Below, in pieces: positions 14,049-18,336 of a DNA stretch of 64,000 bases; position 1 is the first letter of the stretch, and every line of letters starts with the position of its first letter. The stretch is from the NCBI RefSeq assembly GCF_008580665.1, contig NZ_BKDJ01000002.1:124001-188000 (forward strand). The letters are read 5' to 3'. Made by a program: the position numbers and the translations under genes. The stretch is from Zafaria cholistanensis. Lineage in GTDB: Bacteria; Actinomycetota; Actinomycetes; Actinomycetales; Micrococcaceae. The notes beneath the pieces were generated by a model, which saw only the letters and a list, made by a program, of their open reading frames with translations, ran no database searches and had not been told where the DNA came from.

Positions 14049-16547
<2,499 letters not shown>

Positions 16548-16571
16548 TGTGTGCTTCGCCTTCTCCTTGTG

Positions 16572-16595
16572 CGGCCGTCCCGATCGGGGCGGCCG
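16572..16595 (-). other. Hairpin immediately upstream of the leuS ribosome-binding site
   Basis: A 10-bp stem (16572-16581 with 16586-16595, one wobble) with GATC loop lies 3 nt before the AAGGAG at 16563-16568. No U-tract follows on the leuS strand, so it is not a typical terminator. It could affect access to the leuS start or stabilise the transcript. Confidence 0.6.
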
Positions 16596-16650
16596 TTCCG
16601 TGTCCTGCCTGCCGTGCCCCGGGGACCTGTCCTGCCCGGAACATGCAAAA

Positions 16651-16695
16651 GCCCCTTGGCATGCAAGGGGCGGCCACGCGTTTCGAACGCGCGGC
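16651..16695 (-). terminator. leuS attenuator: anti-pause hairpin plus terminator
   Basis: On the leuS strand, a 10-bp hairpin (16695-16686 with 16682-16673, loop CGA) begins at the last base of the leader stop codon. One base later comes an 8-bp GC-rich terminator stem (16671-16664 with 16658-16651, loop 5 nt) followed by TTTTG. The arrangement is leader peptide, hairpin, terminator, then leuS. I could not find a convincing antiterminator pairing, so the exact mechanism is open. Confidence 0.75.
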
Positions 16696-16721
16696 TAGCG
16701 TAGAAGCAGGGTCGTCTCCAT
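16695..16721 (-). CDS. leuS leader peptide (METTLLLR)
   Basis: An 8-codon ORF, ATG GAG ACG ACC CTG CTT CTA CGC TAG. It carries three consecutive Leu codons, each different; CTT and CTA are rare in this GC-rich genome. It lies directly before the attenuator hairpins and about 150 nt before leuS. The ATG is 6 nt after a TAGACT box with no room for a ribosome-binding site, so it should be translated from a leaderless mRNA. Ribosome stalling at the Leu codons when charged tRNA-Leu is low would be the sensing step; this is inference from classical amino-acid attenuation. Confidence 0.75.
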   Translation of the reverse strand: METTLLLR

Positions 16722-16727
16722 GCGGCC

Positions 16728-16733
16728 AGTCTA
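16728..16733 (-). promoter_or_regulatory. Probable -10 box (TAGACT) of the leuS leader
   Basis: TAGACT is separated by 6 nt (GGCCGC) from the leader-peptide ATG, putting the transcription start at or next to the A of the ATG. No good -35 is seen. Confidence 0.6.
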
Positions 16734-16812: not shown

Positions 16813-18336
16813 CTACGCGTCGTCGAGCCAGCCGAAGGTGCGCCGCACGGCCGAATCCCACCGGCGCAGCAGCGCCGCGCGGCGGCCCGCGTCCAGGTCG
16901 GGAACGAACCGGCGCTCCTCGTGCCAGGTTCGTCCCAGCTCCTCCAGGGAGGACCAGTGCCCCACGGCGAGGCCGGCGGCGAAGGCCGCACCCAGCGCGG
17001 TGGTCTCCGTGACGGCCGGGCGCACGACGTCGATGCCGAGCAGGTCGGCCTGGAACTGCATCAGCGCATCGTTCACCGCCATGCCGCCGTCCACGCGCAG
17101 CTCGGTCAGCGGGCGGGAACAGTCCGCGGCGGCCGCGGCGACGACCTCGGCGACCTGGAAGGCGGTGGCCTCCAGCGCGGCCCGGGCCAGGTGCGCCCGG
17201 GTGGCGTAGCGGGTCAGCCCGAAGACGGCGCCGCGGGCCTCCGGGCGCCAGTGCGGAGCGAACAGTCCGGAGAAGGCGGGCACGAAGTACACCCCGGCAT
17301 TGTCCTCCACCGACGCGGCCAGCTGCTCCACCTCGGCGGAGGTGGAGATGATGCCCAGGTTGTCCCGCAGCCACTGCACCAGCGACCCGGCCTCCGCAAT
17401 CGATCCCTCCAGGGCGTACACCGGGTCCTGCCCGGCCAGCCGGTAGGCCACGGTGGTGAGCAGCCCGTTGGCGGAGAACACCGGTTCGGTTCCGGTGACC
17501 ATGTCCATGAAGCAGCCCGTGCCGTAGGTGTTCTTGGCCGCACCGGGGGCGAACACGGTCTGCCCGAAGGTGGCCGCCTGCTGGTCGCCCAGGATCCCGG
17601 CCACCGGAACCCCGGCCAGCACCTCCCCCACCAGCGGCTCCGAGGCGGCGACCGTGCCGTAGACCTCCGCGGAGGCCGCGATGCGCGGCAGCATGGCCGC
17701 GGGGATGCCGAACGCCTCCAGCAGGGCCGGGGACCATTCCAGGGTGCGCAGGTCCATCAGCAGCGTGCGCGAGGCATTGGTGGCGTCGGTGGCGTGCACG
17801 CCCCCGGCCGGCCCGCCGGTGAGGTTCCACAGCATCCAGGAATCCGTGGTGCCAAAGGCCAGGTGGCCGGCCTCCGCGTCGGCCCGGGCGCCGGGCACGT
17901 GGTCCAGGATCCAGGCGATCTTGGTGGCGGAAAAGTAGGTCGCCAGCGGCAGCCCCGTCACTGCCTGGAAGCGGCCGGTGCCGCCGTCGGCCGCCAGCGC
18001 ATCCACGGCCGCCCGGGTGCGGGTGTCCTGCCATACGATCGCCCGGTGCACGGGTTCGCCGGTGCGGCGGTCCCACACCACGGTGGTTTCGCGCTGGTTG
18101 GTGAGCCCGACGGCCGCGATGTCCGCGCCGCCCAGCCCCGCCGCGGCGAGGGCCTCGGCCACGACCAGGCGCACGTTGTCGCGGATTTCGACGACGTCGT
18201 GCTCCACCCAGCCCGGGTGCGGGAAATACTGGCGGTGCTCGCGCTGGGCCGTCGCCACGATCAGCCCGGAACCGTCGACGACGACGGCCCGGGAGGAGGT
18301 GGTCCCCTGGTCGATGGCGAGTACGTAGCGGCGCAT
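16813..18336 (-). CDS. glpK: Glycerol kinase
   Basis: Phosphorylates glycerol to glycerol-3-phosphate in the cytoplasm; FGGY family, 507 residues. It starts [15 protein letters not shown] (phosphate-1 loop), with INQRET-like [38 protein letters not shown] and the C-terminal [20 protein letters not shown] region. All are standard for GlpK. The usual neighbours glpF and glpD are not adjacent. The ATG at 18336 has only a G-run in front but an excellent promoter that puts the transcript start at the ATG, so it is probably leaderless. Confidence 0.96.

Follow-up and report, generated by a model that had tools for sequence, protein, structure and literature searches.

Two abutting hairpins and a leucine-rich leader peptide as a candidate attenuator of leuS in Zafaria cholistanensis and other Actinomycetia

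The leuS leader of Zafaria cholistanensis

Zafaria cholistanensis is a soil bacterium. The window that we analyzed is a 64,000-nt stretch of its genome (assembly GCF_008580665.1, contig NZ_BKDJ01000002.1, positions 124,001 to 188,000). On the minus strand of the window lies a gene that is certainly leuS, and a short leader region adjoins it upstream on the same strand (Table 1). The open reading frame of the leader reads ATG GAG ACG ACC CTG CTT CTA CGC TAG, and the G of its TAG stop codon is also the first base of a hairpin, hereafter hp1. About 100 nt separate the TTTT of the terminator that follows hp1 from the GTG of leuS, and no other TANNNT box was seen between the terminator and the gene. 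Directly upstream of the leader promoter, on the same strand, is the gene of the glycerol kinase GlpK (window 16813-18336).

An initial annotation of this DNA had pointed out the TAGACT box, the 6 nt that follow it, the peptide METTLLLR, a hairpin at its stop codon, an 8-bp stem with TTTT and a third hairpin, and the sequence on the minus strand confirms each of them. Two of the Leu codons had been called rare, as they are: CTT and CTA account for 2.2% and 0.4%, respectively, of the Leu codons in five genes of the window. Concerning the hairpins, the comparison with relatives described below upheld hp1 and the terminator, which are conserved, but not the third hairpin. By eye, the latter is absent from the leaders of the nearest relatives; it is apparently not conserved and probably lies outside the switch.

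Table 1. Features of the leuS leader region (window coordinates)
Feature	Coordinates	Strand	Remarks
-10 promoter box TAGACT	16733-16728	minus	next 6 nt (GGCCGC) would make the first base of the leader ATG the +1 position
Leader peptide ORF, METTLLLR and stop	16721-16695	minus	ATG at 16721; leaderless by box spacing; control codons CTG CTT CTA
Last Leu codon of the leader	16703-16701	minus	CTA
Hairpin 1 (hp1), GCCGCGCGUU-CGA-AACGCGUGGC	16695-16673	minus	10 bp, including one G-U
Spacer between hp1 and terminator	16672	minus	single base, C
Intrinsic terminator stem, GCCCCUUG-CAUGC-CAAGGGGC	16671-16651	minus	8-bp GC stem
TTTT of the terminator	16650-16647	minus	directly after the 8-bp stem
Third hairpin	16595-16572	minus	precedes the leuS ribosome-binding site
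leuS ribosome-binding site, AGGAGAAGG	16567-16559	minus	read from the sequence
leuS, leucine--tRNA ligase	14049..16547	minus	832 aa; GTG start at 16547; TIGR00396, 953 bits

The terminator sequence has no second copy in the window or in the whole genome. When run on the same genome, a covariance model of the leader matched the leuS locus only (E 2e-18), the next match being at chance level (E 4). We therefore rejected the presence of additional copies of the element. None of the Rfam covariance models, including that of the T-box riboswitch, matched at its gathering score, and the matches up to E 10 were at chance level, so that membership in one of these families was also rejected. We discarded as well a pairing between the Leu codons and the leuS ribosome-binding site, in the style of the LEU element, because the short match seen in the window is, by eye, lost in relatives. 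The fold energy of the 183-nt leader is just mildly below that of shuffled sequences (z -1.7). This is expected at such a G+C content, and the evidence that the element is real has therefore to come from relatives.

Conservation of the peptide and of both hairpins

We collected leuS from relatives by searching 59 genomes, in which 30 loci were kept, and by adding 80 named records. Leaders were then sought as a TANNNT box followed, after 4-9 nt, by a short open reading frame with Leu codons. They turned up across most of the Arthrobacter group and likewise in Nocardioides, Actinomadura, Planobispora and members of the Propionibacteriaceae. Although gaps of 4-9 nt were permitted, the start codon of the leaders found lies 6 or 7 nt from the -10 box. 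This is the spacing expected when transcription begins at the start codon, and it points to a leaderless start of the peptide, as had been proposed for Zafaria from the sequence of this single locus.

Overall, the peptide alone led to 69 leuS loci with conserved leaders. Downstream of the peptide, their typical text is CCGC...GCGGC, 0-2 nt, GCCCCT...AGGGGC and TTTT. Since the search had selected Leu codons and not hairpins, it is independent of the hairpins seen in these loci. When 26 of the leaders were aligned, standard pairs occupied 95.8% of the cells and seven of the nine pairs of hp1 were altered on both sides. There are 33 double-change cells versus 8.4 in shuffles, with the signal lost when the partner is slid, and these loci are kin, so that the counts do not represent independent events. 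Among relatives, the comparison, for which the initial annotation had called, thus recovers the leader peptide and its leaderless spacing, hp1, the terminator and the geometry that connects them. The suggestion that leuS is subject to attenuation by a leader peptide is accordingly still the best reading of the locus, the Leu codons and both stems being kept and hp1 showing compensatory changes. As the intrinsic terminator is conserved, the involvement of Rho is unnecessary.

The modest z of the overall fold is what one would see if hairpins and peptide had come together by accident in a GC-rich intergenic region. This explanation is refuted by the conservation across families with compensatory changes, and we give it practically no weight. 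Judged from the alignments, the arrangement of the leader is not a product of chance. In many leaders the bases after TTTT (window 16646-16641) are also kept, as GTGTGT or GCATGT, which exceeds the need of a U-tract.

Spread of the element in the class Actinomycetia

We built a covariance model (R1) from the 26 aligned leaders, mostly of Micrococcaceae, and found matches in 161 of 395 genomes drawn from the class Actinomycetia, corresponding to 68 of 138 genera; members found in this way are biased toward the structure of the model, and the largest group came from the peptide search. All 29 inspected loci among the top-scoring matches are upstream of leuS. R1 also recovers Streptomyces-like loci with the peptide MRAVRLLLSEPR, which is that of leuL2 in S. 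lividans. Because a model built mostly from Micrococcaceae finds these loci, they are likely to carry a homologous RNA.

The leuS leader belongs to a known kind, namely the leuL2-type leuS attenuators of Actinobacteria. Classical attenuators of leuS in S. coelicolor and S. avermitilis were predicted in 2005 by Seliverstov and colleagues (PMC1262725), and RNA-seq of S. lividans TK24 mapped leuL2 upstream of leuS as leaderless, with a hairpin and a U stretch behind it (PMC8079986). The control of leuS by a leaderless peptide is therefore more familiar than the initial annotation had assumed. The Streptomyces leaders share with that of Zafaria the gene, the Leu-rich peptide (mapped as leaderless in S. 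lividans and predicted to be so in Zafaria), the hairpin and the U stretch, and the loci of the class with the leuL2 peptide have an equal offset between Leu codon and hp1 and a spacer of 0-2 nt. They differ in the stop codon: that of Zafaria stands at the foot of hp1, two codons beyond the last Leu, and that of Streptomyces lies inside the hp1 arm, five codons beyond it. A leuS control described for Streptomyces thus extends over a large part of the class. The literature that we consulted does not seem to describe the class-wide spread, the fixed distance from Leu codon to hp1, the abutment of the two hairpins or the lack of a shared-base antiterminator.

The element is not universal. Micrococcaceae in which the present searches did not find it include Kocuria, Rothia, Micrococcus and Auritidibacter. 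Leaders of the Glutamicibacter type (L015, L037, L051, L052, L054) have a single Leu codon left, the last one, as in MNPKRNLA; their hp1 and terminator are entirely different in sequence, yet still abut. In another Glutamicibacter leader (L064, MKPQ) even this Leu codon is lost. L021 and L026, which have no Leu leader, still seem to possess a promoter upstream of leuS, together with a GC hairpin or a stretch resembling a terminator.

Codon choice and distances within the leader

As their last Leu codon, 90 of 105 leaders have CTT and 10 have CTA, the codon of Zafaria, while CTT represents 3.5% of the Leu codons in leuS genes. The two codons that precede it encode Leu in 86-88% of the cases. 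Since the codons were aligned on the last Leu, full conservation at that position holds by construction, which is not the case for the choice of the codon and its distance from hp1. The first base of this codon lies 7-8 nt from the start of hp1 in 94 of 106 leuS leaders, and the spacer between hp1 and the terminator measures 0-2 nt in 103 of 106, as called by an automatic procedure that missed a few hairpins and terminators visible by eye (for example, in L005 and L018). The stop codon begins at most 5 nt upstream of hp1 or within its 5' arm in 102 of 103 leaders. One tRNA can, in general, read both CTT and CTC. CTT is favoured over CTC at the last Leu position, where it may set the strength of stalling.

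These constraints bear on the possibility that the peptide merely sets a basal level of expression, or of reinitiation, with no response to leucine. Mutations of candidate codons in the ilvB leader of S. coelicolor had no effect, according to a citation in PMC1262725, and a fixed partial attenuator of this sort would account for that. It would not lead one to expect that, in 90 of 105 leuS leaders, a codon as rare as CTT stands at the last Leu position and at a fixed distance from hp1, and we regard it as improbable.

A strong hairpin abuts 82 of the 83 leader terminators. Of 42 further terminator-like sites in this DNA, 7 have such a hairpin, including two that are themselves leaders (L095, L035), and the frequency of 7 in 42 equals the background level seen 12-14 nt upstream.

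We calculated how much of the basal hp1 helix would be masked by a ribosome at the last Leu codon and at the stop codon. With the edge of the ribosome at +11 from the P site, a ribosome on that Leu codon masks 2% of the helix and one that has reached the stop masks 84%; the corresponding values are 27% and 94% with the edge at +13, and 53% and 99% with the edge at +15. Hence the outcome at the Leu codon depends on the edge, and the largest value opens the way to the main rival of the reading that we prefer. In this alternative, hp1 and the GC stem terminate transcription together. When leucine is limiting, the ribosome would stall at the last Leu codon, cover the base of hp1 and so allow read-through; otherwise it would leave and both hairpins would form. 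The two hairpins are compatible and can stack, and clusters of hairpins have been proposed as a cause of intrinsic termination (PMC8355165). Moreover, if the edge is at +15, four or more basal pairs of hp1 are masked from the last Leu codon in 95 of 103 leaders, and it is this position that has the most constrained codon. The stem of the terminator is nonetheless strong by itself and has its own TTTT. A joint terminator also leaves unexplained why the two preceding Leu codons, which do not touch hp1, are there, and why all leaders but one place the stop codon at the hp1 5' arm or inside it, where a terminating ribosome would delay hp1. A ribosome edge of +15 suits this alternative, the placement of the stop codon does not, and we consider it unlikely.

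Search for an antiterminator with shared bases

The initial annotation had doubted that the leader contains a classical antiterminator. We folded the transcript from the edge of the ribosome to the first base of the terminator 3' arm and scored the engagement of the terminator 5' arm. In the trp leader of E. coli, used as a positive control, the pairing of the 5' arm reaches 0.62 when the ribosome sits on the Trp codons, compared with 0.01-0.23 when it is at the stop. Across 104 leuS leaders and edges from +11 to +16, the mean pairing is lower for a ribosome on the last Leu codon (0.19-0.33) than for one at the stop (0.36-0.38), and the Streptomyces-like leaders show no rise at the Leu codon either. 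The equilibrium fold of the finished leader would be insensitive for this purpose, because it keeps the terminator in trp too and misses the trp antiterminator. We therefore rejected an antiterminator that excludes the terminator through shared bases, and the doubt proved well founded. Exclusion of the terminator by abutment is possible.

A classical attenuator might still have an antiterminator of this type that simple folding misses. Such a structure is reported for the leuS leaders of S. coelicolor and S. avermitilis, which are called classical in PMC1262725, and the present analysis found none by base sharing. By eye, hp1 can be extended toward the GCC of the terminator in a few members (L012, L063), and an ilvB leader (L180) shares one base. 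In the leuS leaders as a whole the pairing of the 5' arm goes the wrong way round, in a test that does detect the antiterminator of trp, and we judge this explanation to be quite unlikely. A 4-bp pairing between the hp1 3' arm and the terminator loop (CGGC with GUCG) was also set aside, as it is weak, occurs in some Arthrobacter and is, by eye, missing in many members.

A proposed model of attenuation by abutting hairpins

In Zafaria and many relatives, the leader very probably allows more leucine--tRNA ligase to be produced when charged tRNA-Leu is short. With a probability of roughly 0.55, we favour the view that the leader is a leucine-responsive, ribosome-mediated transcription attenuator of leuS in which hp1 excludes the terminator by abutment. 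The A of the leader ATG would be the first base transcribed, and METTLLLR would be translated from the very 5' end. When charged tRNA-Leu is ample, the ribosome would reach the TAG and cover the 5' arm of hp1, which could not form; the terminator would then fold and transcription would stop. When charged tRNA-Leu is scarce, the ribosome would pause on the Leu codons. The first base of hp1, which follows the last Leu codon at a distance of 8 nt and is at +12 relative to the P site, would then lie just outside the ribosome, so that hp1 could form. Being one base from the terminator, hp1 would block the full closing of the stem in the exit channel of RNA polymerase, and leuS would be transcribed.

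We propose hp1 as the deciding element on the grounds of its position, which is that of an antiterminator: it would be free during a pause at the Leu codons and destroyed by a ribosome at the stop. As hp1 shares no bases with the terminator, exclusion by contact is proposed. Both hairpins form in equilibrium folds, and the blocking step is consequently an argument from geometry. From what is generally known of the polymerase exit channel, the last pairs of a terminator need their 5' base inside the channel, and a duplex 0-2 nt away would leave no room for it. We infer that leuS responds to leucine, in which direction the switch works, and that hp1 blocks through abutment and not through base pairs in common.

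The model agrees with the conserved leaders, the covariation of hp1, the bias toward CTT, the fixed distances, the placement of the stop codon, the abutment and the recurrence of the same plan in front of ilvB and citramalate synthase genes. Against it count the edge of +15, with which a ribosome no further than the last Leu codon would already hide half of the basal helix of hp1, the Micrococcaceae genera that lack the element, and L064 with its peptide devoid of Leu. The related ilvB and leuA leaders of S. coelicolor, in addition, did not act as classical attenuators when mutated, as cited in PMC1262725.

The proposed direction of the switch matches that of two related systems. In M. tuberculosis ilvB1, stalling permits the antiterminator and a ribosome at the stop codon prevents it, and the Leu/Val/Ile codons are needed, as shown by mutation (PMC13236596); unlike leuS, that leader controls the synthesis of branched-chain amino acids and is 166 nt long. 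C. glutamicum ilvBNC likewise has a near-leaderless peptide, CUU as the Leu control codon and adjacent bases of antiterminator and terminator, but has three hairpins, and its antiterminator and terminator compete for one GCC trinucleotide common to both (PMC11857589). The trp leader of E. coli resembles leuS in that the position of the ribosome decides on the terminator, and differs in having a shared-base antiterminator, which was detected by the test that finds none in the leuS leaders. The leuS element has a set of fixed features: one rare Leu codon, its set distance to hp1 and two touching hairpins devoid of a shared-base antiterminator. If exclusion by abutment is true, a neighbouring hairpin, and not an alternative pairing, can switch terminators, and searches for competing pairs would miss such cases.

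Related leaders upstream of ilvB and citramalate synthase genes

Some genomes contain a second match to R1. We examined 11 of these matches: seven lie upstream of ilvB (L145, L146, L148, L149, L151, L152, L154; peptides such as MRQDLLLVRTGRAG), and the other four are found before a citramalate-synthase-like gene (L143, L144, L147, L150; Leu/Val/Ile codons in peptides such as MLRVTCLVISRRV). One target of each type was checked against NCBIfam with 200-residue pieces, the remaining ones being assigned by eye, and the best matches were the acetolactate synthase large subunit in the ilvB case and citramalate synthase (TIGR00977) for L143. The pattern search found no ilvB leader of this type in the Zafaria genome itself.

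In both groups, hp1 touches the terminator, and the stop codon is located within the hp1 5' arm or right at it. Somewhat tentatively, leuS, ilvB and citramalate synthase leaders may share an attenuator design common in Actinomycetia, in which a hairpin 0-2 nt upstream bars the terminator from closing in the exit channel with no bases in common, unless it is removed by a ribosome that has arrived at the stop codon. The upstream region of L180 contains an ilvB leader that shares the design with the stop codon in hp1 and the abutting terminator.
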